Shown here: piece after piece, positions 2,417 to 30,726 of the stretch
Layout: each line of letters starts with the position of its first letter
Numbering within the stretch: the stretch's first letter is position 1
Source of the DNA: Ensifer sesbaniae
GTDB lineage: Bacteria > Pseudomonadota > Alphaproteobacteria > Rhizobiales > Rhizobiaceae
Direction of reading: 5' to 3'
Assembly: GCF_013283665.1 (NCBI RefSeq)
Contig: NZ_JABEKU010000001.1
Location: 3,479,137 to 3,543,136 of the forward strand
DNA: 64,000 nucleotides
Made by a program: the position numbers and the translations under genes
Notes under the pieces: model-generated
What the model was told of the DNA's origin: nothing
Database searches by the model: none
What the model saw: the letters and a program-made list of their open reading frames with translations, nothing else

Positions 2417-2422
2417 TCCAGC

Positions 2423-2454
2423 CATGTCGCGCAAAACTGTGCAGCGGTCTTGCA
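2423..2454. repeat. Fragment of the GCATGTCGCGCAAAA-type rhizobial repeat
   Basis: CATGTCGCGCAAAACTGTGC followed by AGCGGTCTTGC, just after the IalB stop, matches the element at 22912-23021 (ATGTCGCGCAAAAGTGCGGA, then GCGGTTTTGC) with a few changes. Only the left palindromic half is present here. Confidence 0.65.
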
Positions 2455-2495
2455 ACACGATTGCGTGACGTCTGAAGGCGAAAAACCAGGCATGG

Positions 2496-2517
2496 GGCCG
2501 GCTGCGAAGCCGGCCTT
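2496..2517 (+). terminator. GC-rich hairpin downstream of the IalB gene
   Basis: GGCCGGCT pairs perfectly with AGCCGGCC around a GCGA tetraloop (2496-2515). An AAAAA run lies about ten bases before it and only a short TT follows, so it is a weak intrinsic terminator or a transcript-end hairpin for the IalB gene. Confidence 0.5.
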
Positions 2518-2702
2518 CTGCGTTCCCGGGGTCTGCCGCGTGACTCCCGGCCAAAACAATGCTAAAGCGCGGCCCAACTTGAGAGCCTCCGCGCCCCGAT
2601 TGGCCGCTTTCGATGGCTCGACCGATTTCAATTCGCGCATCAGGACGATTTCCGGACCCGCTCTCCGGACGGCCTCACGCCGTATGACAGGACATCACGA
2701 GC

Positions 2703-14242: not shown

Positions 14243-14251
14243 TCTTGGCGC

Positions 14252-14354
14252 TCTAACGGGGTGCCTTCCGACCGCATGACGGCCGAAGGCTGAGAGGCGT
14301 GAAACGCCAACCCGCGGAACCTGATCCGGCTCATACCGGCGGAGGGATTAGACG
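14252..14354 (+). ncRNA. TPP riboswitch (THI element)
   Basis: The aptamer core is plain: ACGGGGTGCC, then GGCTGAGAG, then ACCCGCGGAACCTGATCCGG, then a variable hairpin and GGCGGAGGGATTAGA. These are the conserved J3/2, P4/5 and P1-closing parts of the thiamine pyrophosphate riboswitch. It lies 60 bases before thiB, the first gene of the thiamine importer. Downstream, CTTTTCCC (14373-14380) can pair with the GGGAGAGG ribosome binding site (14398-14405) across a 17-base loop, and no T-run follows, so control is probably translational. Confidence 0.95.
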
Positions 14355-14413
14355 CGATCGCACCGATACGCCCTTTTCCCGTGCAACAACGAACATTGGG
14401 AGAGGTGCTTCGC

Positions 14414-15523
14414 ATGTCCAATTCATCACAGCTCAAAATGATTAGCCGGCTAAAGCAATTCCAGCAAAAGTGCGACGCGGTTTTGCGTCCGGAATTGCGC
14501 AAAAGTAAGAAGCTGGAGCGCTTCCGCGCTCTAGCTCTGGCTGCCGCGGCAAGCCTTGTTTTCGCTGGTTATGCAACGGCTGCCGACAAGACGCTGACGG
14601 TCTATACCTATGAGAGCTTCATCACCGAATGGGGCCCCGGCGCCAAGGTGGCGGAAGCCTTCGAAAAGACGTGCGAGTGCAAGGTCAACTATGTCGGCGT
14701 TGCCGATGGCGTCGAATTGCTTACCCGCCTGAAGCTCGAAGGCGAAGCTTCGAAGGCCGACATCGTGCTCGGTCTCGACACCAACCTCGTGGCGGAAGCC
14801 AAGGCAACCGGCTTCTTCGCGCCGCACGGGGTCGACGCCAAGGACCTCAAGGTCCCGGGCGACTTCTCCGACGATACCTTCCTGCCCTATGACTACGGCC
14901 ACTTCGCCGTCGTCTATGACACCGAAACGCTGAAGACGCCGCCGAAGAGCCTCAAGGAACTGGTGGAAGGCGACGCGTCGCAGAAGATCGTCATCGAGGA
15001 CCCGCGCACCTCGACGCCCGGCCTCGGTCTGCTGCTCTGGGTCAAGGCCGTCTATGGTGATGAGGCGGGTGCCGCCTGGGCAAAGCTCAAGGATCGCGTC
15101 CTGACGGTCACCCCCGGCTGGTCGGAAGCCTATGGCCTCTTCACCAAGGGCGAAGCGCCGATGGTGCTCTCCTATACCACCTCGCCCGCCTACCACATGG
15201 TTGCTGAGAACACCGACCGCTACCAGGCGGCCGCTTTCTCCGAAGGCCACTACATCCAGATCGAAGTCGCCGGCATGACCAAGAATGCCAAGGAGCCGGA
15301 ACTGGCTAAGCAGTTCTTGAGCTTCATGACCGGGCCGGAGTTCCAGTCGATCATCCCGACGACCAACTGGATGATGCCGGTTGGCGCCACCAGCGCGCCG
15401 CTGCCGGATGCTTTCAACAAGCTGGTCACTCCGGAAAAGACCTTGCTGCTGCCGTCGGAAGAGGTCGCGAAGAACCGCAAGGCCTGGATCGACGAGTGGC
15501 TTGCCGCGATGAGCAAGAACTGA
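14414..15523 (+). CDS. thiB: Thiamine/TPP ABC importer, periplasmic binding protein
   Basis: A 369-residue binding protein of the thiamine importer. The mature sequence begins near [17 protein letters not shown], typical of ThiB, and [17 protein letters not shown] and [13 protein letters not shown] follow. The start at 14414 has GGGAGAGG eight bases upstream. This start puts about 35 basic residues ahead of the hydrophobic core of the signal peptide ([19 protein letters not shown]), which is much longer than a normal n-region. Bases 14451-14526, coding for roughly residues 13-38, are a copy of a dispersed rhizobial palindromic repeat, so the N-terminus has been extended by a repeat read in frame. 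No start codon exists between the repeat and the hydrophobic core. Confidence 0.92.
14451..14526. repeat. Palindromic repeat translated as part of thiB
   Basis: GCAATTCC (14455-14462) is the inverse of GGAATTGC (14491-14498), with AAAA and TTTT nested inside. The stretch CTAAAGCA...GCAAAAGTGCG...GCGGTTTTGCG is shared with the intergenic element at 22912-22950. The trailing CTGGAGCGCTTCCGCG also fits the dispersed rhizobial repeat. Confidence 0.7.
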
Positions 15524-19669: not shown

Positions 19670-19921
19670 GCGACGGCGCCTCACCGCAGGCGGGTTCGCA
19701 CGCGCTTGTGCTGCGGAAGGCTCAGGCGTTCGCTGTTACAGCGCCGCGCGCCTTATCAGACGCGCAAAGGTCGCTGCAGGACTTTGACTGGCTGCATGTC
19801 TTCGTCCTTCAATCGAGGTCGAATTAAGGAGACAGGCAGTAGGTCGGACTTCGATATGCGAGCGAATGCGTAGTGCCTCGGACTGGGTCCAAGCCACTAC
19901 GCGGTGCCTGTGCTGGCTGCC
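19670..19921. repeat. Intergenic repeats between the M48 gene and rpoH2
   Basis: Bases 19737-19800 (AGCGCCGCGCG ... AAGGTCGCTGCAGGACTTTG) are related to 21065-21126 and, inverted, to about 52513-52567. The neighbouring 19801-19845 looks like the other half of the same element (GCATGT ... ACAGGCAGTAG). No coding frame is supported. Confidence 0.6.
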
Positions 19922-20006
19922 AAAGCATGTCGCGCAAATAACGACATGCGAAATCTCAGAGACTTAAAGCGCGGGGAGCGGAGCTGAAAGGTCGCGACGC
20001 GCTTCA
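19922..20006. repeat. GCATGTCG-type palindromic repeat at the 3' end of rpoH2
   Basis: GCATGTCG (19925-19932) and CGACATGC (19942-19949) are a perfect inverted pair. The right end has AAGCGC ... GCGCTT, and its last bases, read on the minus strand as TGAAGCGCGTC, begin with the rpoH2 stop codon. Compared with the element at 22912-23021 it lacks the GTGCGGAGCGGTTTTGCG segment. Confidence 0.7.
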
Positions 20007-20870
20007 GTGAATGCCCGCGGTCAGGGCCGGCGCTTTGGTCGCAAGCGCCACCCTCAGCTTTTCGAGCGCCCGGGTTTCGATCTGCCGCACCCGTTCCTTG
20101 GAAATGCCGAGATCGAGGCCAAGCTCTTCGAGCGTCGCACCATCCTCCGACAGCCGTCGTGCACGGATGATGCGCATTTCCCTCTCCGTCAAGGCACCGA
20201 GCGCATCGCGAAGCCACACACGGGCGCGTTCTCCGTCGATCATGTCGCTGACCTGTTCGTCGGGGAGCGGCGCATCGCTGGCCAGGAAATCCAGTCGCTC
20301 GCCGCCATCGGAATCGGCGCCGCCGACGGGGGCCTGCAAGGAGGTGTCGCTGCCGGATAGCCGCGCATCCATGGTCTGCACATCGGCGATGCTGACGCCA
20401 AGCGCCGCGGCGATTTCCTCATGCATAGCCTGCGATGTAAGCTGCCTGTCGCCCTGGGCAAGACGCGCGCGCAAGCGCCGCAGGTTGAAGAACAGCGCCT
20501 TCTGCGCCGAACTCGTGCCGCCGCGGACGATCGACCAATTGCGTAGGACGTAATCCTGCATCGATGCCCGGATCCACCAGGTCGCATAGGTCGAGAACCT
20601 GACCTCACGGCTGGGTTCGAAGCGGGCCGCCGCTTCCAGGAGGCCGATATGGCCCTCCTGGACCAGGTCGCCCATCGGCAGGCCGAAATTGCGGAATTTC
20701 GCTGCCATCGAGATCACCAGCCGCATGTGGGACATGGCGATCTTGTTGCGGGCTTCCTGATCATGGTCGTTCCGCCAGGCCTGGGCCAGCGCGTGCTCCT
20801 CGTCGCGCTCGAGATAGGGGGCCTCCATTGCGATCTTGATCATCCGCCGGTCTGCAGTGAGAGTCTTCAT
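20004..20870 (-). CDS. rpoH2: RNA polymerase sigma-32 type factor (RpoH2-like)
   Basis: A 288-residue group 3 sigma factor. Region 2 is complete (MRLVISMAAKFRNFGLPMGDLVQEGHIGLL, then FSTYATWWIRASMQDYVLRNWSIVRGG), followed by the RpoH box QKALFFNLRR that distinguishes sigma-32 from other sigmas, and region 4 ends with ATLEELGLDLGISKERVRQIETRALEKLR. Rhizobia have two RpoH proteins, and the early sequence and length fit RpoH2, which directs a set of stress genes distinct from the main heat-shock RpoH1 set. GGAG lies before the ATG at 20868-20870. The stop codon is formed by the edge of a dispersed repeat. The upstream 500 bases carry repeats, a large palindrome and one RpoE2-like promoter match. 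Confidence 0.92.
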   Translation of the reverse strand: MKTLTADRRMIKIAMEAPYLERDEEHALAQAWRNDHDQEARNKIAMSHMRLVISMAAKFRNFGLPMGDLVQEGHIGLLEAAARFEPSREVRFSTYATWWIRASMQDYVLRNWSIVRGGTSSAQKALFFNLRRLRARLAQGDRQLTSQAMHEEIAAALGVSIADVQTMDARLSGSDTSLQAPVGGADSDGGERLDFLASDAPLPDEQVSDMIDGERARVWLRDALGALTEREMRIIRARRLSEDGATLEELGLDLGISKERVRQIETRALEKLRVALATKAPALTAGIH

Positions 20871-20959
20871 CGATCACTCCGTGACTGGCGCCCGGGCGCC
20901 ATTGCGTGTGAAGTCCAAAAGGCCGGACGGATGAGGCGTCCGGCAGCAGGGGCGTCCAG

Positions 20960-21000
20960 ATCACGATTATGTGGATCGGATCGATCCACATCATCGTAAT
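20960..21000 (-). promoter_or_regulatory. Large palindrome upstream of rpoH2
   Basis: Two 18-base arms (20960-20977 and 20983-21000) are inverted copies with two mismatches, around GGATC; the inner ATGTGGATC/GATCCACAT is perfect. It lies 90 bases upstream of the rpoH2 start and is AT-richer than its surroundings. It does not resemble the neighbouring repeat families. Operator or transcript hairpin. Confidence 0.55.
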
Positions 21001-21016
21001 CGATTCCAATAAGCCA

Positions 21017-21166
21017 GAGCGGGATGCGGGCGAAAACCGCTCGCACTTTTCCTCATCCCGCTCCAGAGCGCCGTGCGTTCAGGTCAACGCATTAAGGTCG
21101 CTCCAGCACTTTGTTTCTAGAGCATCTTTTCCGCTTCCAGTGATGCCACTCGAAGCGGGATGCTCC
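21017..21166. repeat. Two palindromic repeat units upstream of rpoH2
   Basis: Unit one: GAGCGGGATG (21017-21026) inverse to CATCCCGCTC (21054-21063). Then 21065-21126, related to 19737-19800 (AGCGCCG, AAGGTCGCT, ACTTTG). Unit two: GAGCATC...CCGCTTC inverse to GAAGCGG...GATGCTC at 21120-21165. A related but scrambled set lies at 52427-52568. Confidence 0.7.
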
Positions 21167-21333
21167 GGAGCCGCGGCGTCGGAACTTGAAGAAACGACGC
21201 GGCGCCCTAACTTCGAAGTCACGAACCTGAACGGTGATGGATCACAGAACCAAGATCGCCCGGCGCGAAAGCGGCGCATTCCTGCCGGCTAATCTAAATG
21301 CGCGTCAGCGCGAAAGGTTCCATTCGGTCAAAG

Positions 21334-21363
21334 AAAAAGCCCGGCGCGACGACCGGGCTTTTT
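21334..21363 (-). terminator. Intrinsic terminator of cdnL
   Basis: AAAAAGCCCGG pairs with CCGGGCTTTTT around an eight-base loop; on the minus strand the T-run follows the stem. It lies 29 bases beyond the cdnL stop. Confidence 0.9.
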
Positions 21364-21391
21364 GCGAGGTACTGATGCGGGCGAAATGCGC

Positions 21392-21961
21392 TTACGCAGC
21401 TTCGTCCTGGGTATCGTCTTCTTCGATAGCCTTGCCGCGCTTCGGGCCCTTGCTGAGGTTGGCCTCGACGAGGCGCACGGCTTCGGTCTCCGACATCTTG
21501 TTCACGGCAGCGATTTCGCGCGCCATGCGGTCAAGGGCAGCCTCATAGAGCTGGCGTTCGGAATAGGACTGTTCCGGCTGGTTTTCGGCGCGATAAAGAT
21601 CGCGGACGACTTCCGCGATGGAAATCAGGTCGCCGGAGTTGATCTTGGCATCGTATTCCTGGGCGCGGCGCGACCACATGGTGCGCTTCACGCGAGCCTT
21701 GCCCTGCACAACCTTCAACGCACGATCGACGAAATCGGTTTCGGACAGCTTGCGCATGCCGATGCTGACAGCCTTGGCCACCGGCACCTTCAGACGCATC
21801 TTGTCCTTCTCGAAATCGATGACAAAAAGCTCAAGCTTCATGCCGGCGACTTCCTGCTCTTCGATCGCCACGATCTGGCCAACGCCGTGGGCCGGATAAA
21901 CGATCGATTCACCGGTCTTGAAGCCCTGGCGTGTCGAAGATTTTTTCTGCTGGGTCGTCAT
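21392..21961 (-). CDS. cdnL: CdnL/CarD family transcription regulator
   Basis: A 189-residue protein that binds the RNA polymerase beta subunit and stabilises open complexes at rRNA and other promoters. The N-terminal RNAP-interacting domain is seen in FKTGESIVYPAHGVGQIVAIEEQEVAG, followed by the helical C-terminal domain with the conserved WSRRAQEYDAKI (the tryptophan that stabilises the melted bubble) and SGDLISIAEVVRDLYR. I chose the ATG at 21959-21961, with GGGAG upstream; an upstream in-frame start would add 39 residues absent from the family. It lies downstream of ferredoxin, S4 protein and helicase genes on the same strand, an order I recall as common in alphaproteobacteria. Confidence 0.93.
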   Translation of the reverse strand: MTTQQKKSSTRQGFKTGESIVYPAHGVGQIVAIEEQEVAGMKLELFVIDFEKDKMRLKVPVAKAVSIGMRKLSETDFVDRALKVVQGKARVKRTMWSRRAQEYDAKINSGDLISIAEVVRDLYRAENQPEQSYSERQLYEAALDRMAREIAAVNKMSETEAVRLVEANLSKGPKRGKAIEEDDTQDEAA

Positions 21962-22345
21962 TCGTTTCAAAAACTCCCTGTTTCGCGCCGGCCATTCTGG
22001 CCGGGGCCGGGTCAGTGAGGCCCGGGAAGACGGGGATACCGCCGGGTGGGTACATCCTGGTCCGTCCAAGGAATGCAAACAGCCTCATGAAATGCGGTCA
22101 CAACAGAGCAAAGCCATGTTGCGTATAGGGAGAAACCGCGTTTTGGAGATCGTTTGCTTTCGTGATGGTTTTCGGGCGCGCAAAAACACCCTCTGTGGAT
22201 CAGTAGAAGGAACCTATCACAAAAAAGTGCCGAAATCAATAATTTGCTGCATGGCAGCCATCAAGCCACCATTCTCGCAACTGCGAGCGCAGTGCGTGTT
22301 TTCCCCAGCTTTGGCGCGCTGGGTCGCTCTCACTGCGTCAGCCTC
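21962..22345. other. Promoter region of cdnL, no gene seen
   Basis: About 385 bases, moderately AT-rich (22100-22260), between cdnL and the fdxA 3' hairpin. I see no coding frame that is not a shadow and no repeat of the families found nearby. It must hold the cdnL promoter. Confidence 0.5.
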
Positions 22346-22369
22346 GACGAACGATGGAGATCGTTCGTC
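22346..22369 (-). terminator. Perfect hairpin directly after the fdxA stop codon
   Basis: GACGAACGAT and ATCGTTCGTC form a ten-base perfect stem with a four-base loop, touching the stop codon at 22370. No T-run follows on the minus strand, so it may protect the transcript end or be a Rho-assisted stop. Confidence 0.55.
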
Positions 22370-22708
22370 TCAGTCGCCCTGGCCCGGCTCGGCAGAGAAG
22401 AACTTCTCGTACTTGCCTTCGACGCCGTCCATCTCCTTGGCTTCCGGCAACGGGTCGCGCTTGACGGTGATGTTCGGCCACTTCGTGGCAAAATCAGCGT
22501 TCAGTTTCAACCACATATCAAGGCCCGGCTCCGTATCCGGCTTGATCGCTTCGGCAGGACATTCCGGTTCGCAGACGCCACAGTCGATGCACTCGTCCGG
22601 ATGAATGACGAGGAAATTCTCACCCTCATAGAAGCAATCCACGGGGCAGACTTCGACACAGTCGGTATACTTGCAGCGAATGCAGTTGTCGGTCACGACG
22701 TACGTCAT
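22370..22708 (-). CDS. fdxA: Seven-iron ferredoxin (3Fe-4S/4Fe-4S)
   Basis: A 112-residue electron carrier with nine cysteines at 9, 12, 17, 21, 25, 40, 43, 46 and 50. The pattern matches Azotobacter FdI-type ferredoxins: Cys9, 17 and 50 with the 3Fe-4S cluster; Cys21, 40, 43 and 46 with the 4Fe-4S cluster; Cys12 and Cys25 free. The tail of about 50 residues after the clusters is typical of this class. The start ATG at 22706-22708 follows GGAG and begins MTYVVTDN; upstream codons in the same frame do not belong to the family. A strong hairpin touches the stop. The redox partner is unknown. Confidence 0.95.
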
Positions 22709-22911
22709 GAGGTACTCCAGCCAATGCTCACGTTTGATGGCAGACGGCAATCAATGGTGATGCTCGTCGTCCGCGCATGCTAGGAATGTCCGGCGCGCAT
22801 AGCTGCCGAAGCAAACCCGATGCACCCAACGTGGGTCTGTCAGGTAAAGGCTTTATGGGCCCTTTGCAAGAATATTCAATGCGCGAAACGCCGCGGCAAA
22901 GGCAGAGTTTT

Positions 22912-23021
22912 CTAAAGCATGTCGCGCAAAAGTGCGGAGCGGTTTTGCGGTACGGCCTGCTAAAAAAAATCAAAAACTCGAAGCGCACGGAGCGGATCGG
23001 AAAGTTCGCGACGCGCTTCAA
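22912..23021. repeat. Full-length GCATGTCG-type repeat at the 3' end of the S4 gene
   Basis: CTAAAGCATGTCGCGCAAAA, then GTGCGGAGCGGTTTTGCGG, an A/T-rich middle, and AAGCGC...GCGCTTCA. It shares its left half with 2423-2454 and 14451-14488 and its right end with 19996-20006 and 30317-30327. On the minus strand the AAGCGC/GCGCTT hairpin is followed by GAGTTTTTGATTTTTTTTAG, so it can work as a terminator for the S4 gene. Confidence 0.75.
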
Positions 23022-23431
23022 TCCTCGCGTGGATCGAAATCGGGTTTCAGCCGATCGGTTTCCCGCCGCTCTTTCTTGGTCGGGCGTCCCGCCCCACGAT
23101 CGCGCGTGGCGAGATCATAAGCCGAGAGCCTTTCCTTCGGCCGTTCGGGCGTGAGATCGTCATAGAGAAGCCGCGCCTCCTCGTAAGGGCCACGCCGCTC
23201 CCCGGGGGCGAGCACGCGCACGATCAGTTCGCGGCGGTCGAGGGCGAGCTGGAGCACGTCCCCCGCCTTGACCTGAAACGACGACTGCGTCACGCGCTGC
23301 TCGTTGACGGCCACCCGGCCGTCCTCGATCGCCTTTTGCGCAAGCGAACGCGATTTGATCAGCCGCGTGAAAAACAGCCACTTGTCGAGACGCTGGCGCG
23401 ATGCCGGGTTGGACGTGGGCTGTTTTTCCAT
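23018..23431 (-). CDS. S4-domain RNA-binding protein (Hsp15-like)
   Basis: A 137-residue protein with one N-terminal S4 domain: RLDKWLFFTRLIKSRSLAQKAI and the loop GRVAVNEQRV, then VKAGDVLQLAL. The C-terminal third is basic. It resembles Hsp15 (HslR), which binds 50S subunits that carry stalled peptidyl-tRNA, although alphaproteobacterial members have not been studied much. The gene starts eight bases after the helicase stop, so the two are co-transcribed. Its stop codon TGA is the first three bases of the repeat end TGAAGCGCGTC. Confidence 0.87.
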   Translation of the reverse strand: MEKQPTSNPASRQRLDKWLFFTRLIKSRSLAQKAIEDGRVAVNEQRVTQSSFQVKAGDVLQLALDRRELIVRVLAPGERRGPYEEARLLYDDLTPERPKERLSAYDLATRDRGAGRPTKKERRETDRLKPDFDPRED

Positions 23432-30316: not shown

Positions 30317-30327
30317 GACGCGCTTCA
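30317..30327. repeat. Repeat edge GACGCGCTTCA overlapping a stop codon
   Basis: This 11-mer is identical to 19996-20006 and 23010-23020. In all three places its last three bases are the reverse complement of the stop codon of a minus-strand gene. Only the end of the repeat is clear here. Confidence 0.6.
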
Positions 30328-30726
30328 AAGGCCGATCGACACGTCCCTGCCAGCCGAACGCATCGAGACGGCAAAACCGGCGATGACATCGATGAAACTG
30401 ATCGTCATCAGGATGAAGAAGAGCTGGGTCGCCGCCGGCGCCAGTAGCAGGAATTCGATCAGGAAGGCGATGAACAGGATCATCGACAGCAGGTGATCCA
30501 TCAGCGCCCGCGTGCTCGTGCGGGTCGCCTTCAGCAATTCGACGAACAGCAGCAACAGCGCGACGACGATCAGAAGGTCGCCGAAGCGCATCGTCCAGGT
30601 CGCGCCCGACAGCATGGATAGCGACAGCATCTCGGCATTGAGCCCGGCCATACCGCCAAACATTCCGATCATCGCGAGATTGTAGATGGCGAAAGGCAGG
30701 ATCAGCAGCGGAACGGCAGCGAGCAT
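30325..30726 (-). CDS. Small integral membrane protein of unknown function
   Basis: A 133-residue hydrophobic protein with about four membrane helices (starting LAAVPLLILPFAIYNLAMIGM, then a GDLLIVVALLLLFVELLKATR helix, MILFIAFLIEFLLLAP, and FFILMTISFIDVIAGFAV). I do not recognise a named family with confidence. Charged residues between helices 2 and 3 (KATRTSTRALMDH) probably mark a cytoplasmic loop. It is alone between phaR and rpmF; the stop codon comes from the edge of a dispersed repeat. Frame quality and continuous hydrophobic pattern support a real gene. Confidence 0.75.
   Translation of the reverse strand: MLAAVPLLILPFAIYNLAMIGMFGGMAGLNAEMLSLSMLSGATWTMRFGDLLIVVALLLLFVELLKATRTSTRALMDHLLSMILFIAFLIEFLLLAPAATQLFFILMTISFIDVIAGFAVSMRSAGRDVSIGL

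Follow-up and report, generated by a model that had tools for sequence, protein, structure and literature searches.

A MITE-like repeat of rhizobia whose ends often coincide with stop codons

In Ensifer/Sinorhizobium and Rhizobium, a repeat of about 106 bp frequently lies with one of its ends exactly on the stop codon of a gene. We consider it highly probable that this repeat is a MITE whose target site and terminal sequences make insertion into a stop codon harmless. An earlier note on the 64,000-nucleotide stretch of DNA analysed here (the window) had caught sight of a real phenomenon through a poor marker, the 11-mer TGAAGCGCGTC, at the ends of three minus-strand genes.

The repeat unit has two hairpins and inverted ends, and runs from TAAAGCrCGTCGCG to CGCGACATGCTTTA. 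Its consensus, TAAAGCGCGTCGCGATCTTTCAGATTCGCTCCTTGCGCTTTAAGTTTTTGATATTTCGCATGTCGTTATCGCAAAACCGCTGCGCACTTTTGCGCGACATGCTTTA, was obtained by a search with the copy at rpoH2 followed by alignment of 20 copies, in which the inverted ends form 12 pairs with 87.9% of cells paired. Genomes were searched with R1, a covariance model built on an RNAalifold consensus that missed the two hairpins. In the genome of the window R1 gave 43 matches at E < 1e-3 and 36 at E ≤ 1e-5; a few of the weakest of the 43 perhaps belong to other families. One such match, L102 (C1:287848-287951), is a different repeat with TA ends, TAGAGCGTTCCC...CTGGAAATGCTCTA. One end of it provides a TAG stop codon, and its ends are similar to those of a roughly 1.05-kb IS630-like element in the relatives G009 and G014 (L352, L353).

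All 16 genomes searched in the genus carry the element, with at least 6 to 65 matches each (E ≤ 1e-5), the totals of the relatives being lower bounds from the 127 candidates scored per genome. From the 15 relatives we used the best 80 of 476 matches, which come from nine genomes and are the least decayed copies. Together with the 43 copies of the window's own genome they make 123 copies in 112 site groups (the neighbours L074 and L084, with overlapping flanks, were merged), and the element therefore does not represent one inherited site. Among genomes reached through named rpoH2 loci, six of eight contained it; R. leguminosarum Tri-43 gave 72 matches and S. meliloti 4H41 five divergent ones. 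In a plasmid collection, 442 records hold the element at 954 places, mostly in Rhizobium and Sinorhizobium. A genus-specific element, as the 15 genomes from outside the genus, of which two gave one weak match each, might have indicated, was rejected, 345 of the 442 plasmid records being from Rhizobium. On contig C1 (3.7 Mb) 27 of 32 matches lie on the minus strand and five on the plus strand, spread without an obvious switch, and strands are mixed among the matches listed for the relatives. Three copies in the same orientation occur within 1.5 kb at C1:2437453-2438928.

The features of the window that concern the element are the following.
2418..2518, minus strand: very decayed element fragment (R1 E 0.016 within the window)
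14451..14525, minus strand: decayed element fragment (R1 E 2.8e-4 within the window)
19921..20006, minus strand: element copy A, 86 bp (R1 81.3 bits, E 1.6e-17; 20 right-arm alignment columns missing)
20004-20006, minus strand: first three bases of copy A, TGA, the rpoH2 stop, at offset 0 of a 288-aa ORF
20004..20870, minus strand: rpoH2-type sigma factor gene, 288 aa (Pfam Sigma70_r2 1e-17, Sigma70_r4 4.4e-17)
22913..23020, minus strand: element copy B, full length, 108 bp (R1 101 bits, E 3e-22)
23018-23020, minus strand: first three bases of copy B, TGA, the stop of the S4-domain gene, at offset 0 of a 137-aa ORF
23018..23431, minus strand: S4-domain protein gene, 137 aa, with its stop from copy B (Pfam S4 1.2e-15)
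30320..30327, minus strand: probable scar TGAAGCGC of a lost element, with a stop at 30325-30327, followed by host flank GTCACGATCC
30325..30726, minus strand: 133-aa gene, an ORF with no Pfam match, its stop supplied by the probable scar

The name rpoH2 is that of the earlier note; Pfam identifies sigma-70 regions 2 and 4. The 133-aa gene, previously called a membrane protein, has a match in all 16 genomes of the genus. Copies A and B both give the stop with their left end, as TGA where the consensus has TAA. Neither of the fragments at 14451-14525 and 2418-2518 has the stop of an ORF of 60 or more codons at either of its ends. Rfam returned no match for the repeat and only a TPP riboswitch in the window (14247-14364, 71.4 bits), with the fragment at 14451-14525 about 90 nt downstream of it.

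The 11-mer TGAAGCGCGTC lies at 19996-20006, 23010-23020 and 30317-30327, always on the minus strand, and in each copy the TGA closes a minus-strand ORF in frame (288, 137 and 133 aa). These observations of the earlier note were borne out: three copies stand against 0.16 expected, and none of 100 shuffles gave three or more. The enrichment at stop codons that was expected genome-wide did not appear. The genome (6.9 Mb, five contigs) has 31 exact copies, compared with 20 for the pattern read backwards, and 30 of the 31 were read. Apart from the three in the window, none of these coincides at its start with the stop of a long ORF (0 of 27 for ORFs of at least 100 codons), which is the result that the earlier note had itself named as speaking against its proposal. 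Three of the 30 are members of the element family, namely the copies at rpoH2 and at the S4 gene and one at C1:1937531, which is not on the stop of a long ORF. With so few copies in the family and none at stops outside the window, the 11-mer was rejected as the repeat unit. Between the rpoH2 and S4 copies the similarity extends over 56 nt at 80%; the third has just 16 nt in common with the others, and its final bases (GTC, then ACGATCC) match host flank of relatives.

When the whole element is considered, one of its ends falls exactly on a stop codon in 21 of the 43 copies of the own genome (ORFs of 100 or more codons, codon score) and in 52 of the 80 copies of the relatives. Shifted controls, in which each element was moved by up to 300 bases 200 times, gave on average 0.07 (of 43) and 0.12 (of 80) such copies. 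The own count varies slightly (21 or 22 of 43) with retraining of the coding score as loci accumulated and with changed length limits, and the gene caller was crude, with 67% of training ORFs positive in its first version; among the 30 best own copies, 14 have an end exactly on a stop, and allowing ORFs of 60 or more codons places 72 of the 123 copies at stops. The coincidence is exact: at offset 0 the relatives show 53 ends (32 right and 21 left), compared with at most three, both sides together, at any other offset between -30 and +30. The suggestion that a repeat enters at gene ends thus survives with the 106-bp element in place of the 11-mer as its unit. Its ends do supply stop codons, as had been proposed; either of them can do so, the right one more often.

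Public annotation gave the same picture. In 13 of 14 annotated plasmid regions, picked because a CDS lay under the match, the CDS ends exactly on the outer three bases of the element; in the exception it ends 17 nt inside. Twelve of the 14 regions derive from an even sample of 60 records, 18 rows of which name a feature, and two from the list of best matches. Six further plasmid regions listed without a feature have no overlapping CDS, one of them lying in a nearly unannotated record. In Rhizobium sp. WSM4643 both element ends are stops, of a cupin gene and of a pyrroline-5-carboxylate reductase gene.

At four sites, element-free relatives show the join. At the site of the third window copy, G009 has a full element at the stop of the orthologue (L500, R1 125.1 bits), reading CTT TAA AGCC...CGCTTTA GGTCACGA, and G001 is empty, reading CTA TAG GTCACGA (TAG GTCACGACCGATCC); by this comparison TA was therefore duplicated and the stop became TAA. 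The stops of the relatives are here TAG in six and TGA in eight, the latter mostly more distant. At C1:1630482 the filled site reads AAC TAA...TTTAAGCATCGC (TAA..TTTAAGCATCG) and the empty one, in G009 and G001, AAC TAA GCGTCGC (TAAGCGTCG), so that the duplication may be read as TA or TAAG. An M23-family metallopeptidase gene beside clpB ends AAC TAA AGC where filled and AAG TAG where empty, in S. meliloti Ak57 and strain K101. At C1:2403525 the filled form is GAC TAA and the empty one GAC TAG (G001, G002 and G011); of the other relatives four have a TGA stop, and in eight the frame runs on for one to three more codons. The proteins of the relatives given here as empty end at the matching codon, with a different last residue at the M23 gene. 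The joins reveal a target-site duplication of TA, which turns xTAG into xTA[AAGC...GCTT]TAG and remakes the stop as TAA.

The same comparison suggests how the third window copy arose. It is probably a deletion scar in which an element end was kept as the stop, rather than a small independent change, because G009 has a full element at the matching stop and G001 is empty; the flank GTCACGATCC that follows TGAAGCGC is common to both of these relatives.

At the rpoH2 stop the element is found in G000, G001, G008 and G009, the matches in G001 and G008 being weak and the element of G009 lying in the opposite orientation to that of G000. The other 12 members of the genus end in TGA, not TAR, followed by different sequence, and in G013 an element copy lies 9 nt further on. 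Across the genus, rpoH2 orthologues have their stop at the equivalent codon. Comparison with orthologues lacking the repeat, which had been put forward as a check, found the protein ending at the corresponding place. One weak element (L094) has an empty site with TGA in PDNC004 and lends no support to a TAR rule. In three of nine shared-site groups (L070/L200, L088/L261 and L251/L266) the element occurs in opposite orientations at one site, which suggests repeated insertion at one target or inversion in place.

Targets were readable in the 64 of 123 copies that keep TA at both ends: CTAG in 34, TTAG in 19, CTAA in 3, TTAA in 2 and other sequences in 6, so that 58 of the 64 fit YTAR. CTAG is the rarest of the 256 tetranucleotides in a 464-kb sample. 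Outside coding interiors, 32 of 117 CTAG sites are stop codons (864 kb), as are 14 of 21 of those in convergent gaps. The elements avoid divergent (promoter) gaps, which hold 4 of 123 elements compared with 108 of 356 YTAR sites (400 kb). Convergent gaps hold 60 of 123 compared with 63 of 356, and three of the 123 lie within called genes. Outside divergent gaps, stops account for 26 of 34 elements at CTAG but 32 of 90 CTAG sites, and for 17 of 22 elements at TTAG/CTAA but 57 of 295 such sites; the element figures are restricted to copies that have kept TA at both ends, and this biases them towards stops. Gap-class counts differ between the two tallies (gap classes of the 123 elements, and stop share per target). 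Target choice does not account for the whole excess at stops; the part beyond the motif may reflect selection, a wider target context, or protection of stop-forming ends from mutating.

We propose the following course of events. A non-autonomous MITE of about 106 bp would insert at the TA within YTAR, mostly CTAG, and duplicate the TA. Where this TA belongs to a TAG or TAA stop, the result would be TA+A, that is TAA, and because the element ends begin with AAGC the stop would be remade and the protein end left unchanged. CTAG is rare, and of its non-coding sites about one in four is a stop, with two thirds in convergent gaps; target choice alone would therefore send many insertions to stop codons. 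Selection would remove insertions from coding and promoter DNA. Later mutation of an end that serves as a stop would be restricted to other stops (TAA to TGA), which may have given the TGAAGC of the window, and an end could persist as a stop after the rest of the element is lost, as at the third window copy. Whether the family is in addition specialised for stop codons, CTAG target and A-initial ends together forming a safe landing site, is a claim that we would put at slightly below even chances.

One competing view replaces target choice by selection: a hairpin directly after the stop would help the host, by protecting the mRNA 3' end or by bidirectional termination between convergent genes, and insertions at stops would be those that were kept. 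The over-representation of stops relative to the available CTAG and TTAG/CTAA sites and the crowding into convergent gaps agree with such a benefit, as does the consensus RNA, which with one base added at each end folds into two hairpins at -37 kcal/mol and better than shuffles (z -3.1). However, for copies A and B of the window the folding advantage over shuffles is unconvincing (z -1.8 and -0.7), presence of the element varies between close relatives at the same gene, and compensatory changes were not clearly above shuffles, either for the two hairpins or for the inverted ends. The AAGCGC/GCGCTT stem, which had been proposed to end transcription, does exist, but no match to an intrinsic terminator (a G+C-rich hairpin followed by a T run) was found on either copy (19700-23100), and a terminator function is unsupported. 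A conserved RNA was likewise rejected: 90% of cells are paired in the two-hairpin structure, but with covariation not clearly above that of shuffles. We regard host benefit as the main cause as a possibility well short of even, and prefer insertion at a target that makes it harmless.

The element is short, has many dispersed copies and terminal inverted repeats, and shows a TA duplication with empty sites. A MITE-like repeat is the best reading of these features, the empty and filled sites providing indirect evidence of movement. It was probably moved in trans by an IS5/IS427-type transposase that shares its CTAG target; we take these names to apply to the DUF4096 elements. IS5-like elements of the same genomes lie in C/TA..TA/G (slashes marking the borders) in 12 of the 13 loci whose ends match at 12 or more of 16 bases, and in 13 of the 17 listed when 11 suffice. 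The ends were chosen as the best pair among those flanked by TA; several of the loci represent a single element located at various sites, and 17 of the 30, having weaker ends or none, were set aside. An autonomous element with the inverted ends of the repeat was not found among the 30 of 32 DUF4096 matches examined, nor among 30 of 39 DDE_3 matches. A transposase of the IS630/Tc1-mariner type (TA target), as for RUP, is a less probable mover. The TA duplication would fit it, and the ends of the IS630-like element of the genus (L352, L353), which are TA-flanked and read TAGAGCrTTTCC, are similar to those of L102 in the own genome. The ends of the 106-bp element itself, however, occurred at none of the 30 DDE_3 loci, and its CTAG context matches that of the IS5-like elements.

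That the element was published earlier, under an old name, as the Rhizobium-specific intergenic mosaic element (RIME) is a further possibility, which we think rather improbable. Size and palindromes of the RIME are, as we assume, similar to those of the element. A 1995 paper reportedly placed a RIME in the chvI-chvG gap of R. leguminosarum, and by gene order we take this to be the gap that separates two regulator-sized genes next to pckA. It holds a different repeat, 79% identical to a second rhizobial repeat family found in the window at 19738-19826, which contains TCAGACGCGCAAAGGTCGCTGCAGGACTTTG; R1 gave E 0.17 in this gap in R. leguminosarum and no match in the corresponding stretches of the other five genomes. 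We do not file the element as a RIME because the gap taken as chvI-chvG holds another repeat, and the 19738-19826 family is perhaps the RIME of the literature. The element and the RIMEs have their hosts in common: in the part of the source available, the known repeats of rhizobia comprise RIMEs, described as intergenic, Sm repeats, and AB and C motifs (PMC2573895).

Chance, by which a TGA or TAA in a repeat end now and then closes an ORF and three cases in one window are luck, could appeal to the lack of enrichment of the 11-mer outside a window picked for its three matches, but it is already contradicted, to the point of being negligible, by the exact-offset spike in 123 copies relative to shifted positions, by the element-free orthologues ending at the matching place and by the publicly annotated CDS ends.

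If the family is specialised for stop codons in the way named above, most well-preserved copies would have rewritten TAG or TAA to TAA with a hairpin directly behind the stop, and the element would spread through rhizobia at almost no cost while shifting their stop-codon usage. Stop codons of these genomes can be of mobile origin. Our explanation provides a concrete, testable mechanism for harmless transposon insertion within the last codon of a gene and may explain the overlap of small bacterial repeats with gene ends. The filled and empty sites are natural before/after pairs in which the effect on expression of a hairpin directly behind a stop codon can be followed.

Among the literature matches listed, mostly without subscription papers, there was no report of stop codons supplied by this rhizobial family. 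The IS5/IS427-type elements of the same genomes share with it the position in C/TA...TA/G (12 of 13 loci with good ends), and differ in being usually about 0.85 kb long, with their own transposase and different inverted ends. The GTAG REPs, in the part of the description available, are palindromes of 20-40 bp, unlike the two hairpins, 106 bp and TA duplication seen here. Closer in form is the pneumococcal RUP, which according to the available part of its description is 107 bp long, has inverted ends and a TA target, and was proposed to move in trans (PMC2229807). By description rather than sequence, the rhizobial element differs from RUP in its YTAR/CTAG context and its frequent position at stops, and an IS630 partner was not found for it among the 30 DDE_3 loci. 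Closer in effect is BOX, also of the pneumococcus, which is modular (boxA, boxB and boxC) and of variable length, the part of the paper available giving no target motif for it (PMC3049150). There, the repeat encodes the stop of an annotated gene in 36 cases, with strong evidence of truncation absent (PMC3049150). Because BOX encodes the stops of these 36 pneumococcal genes, a repeat end that acts as a stop codon is already in print.
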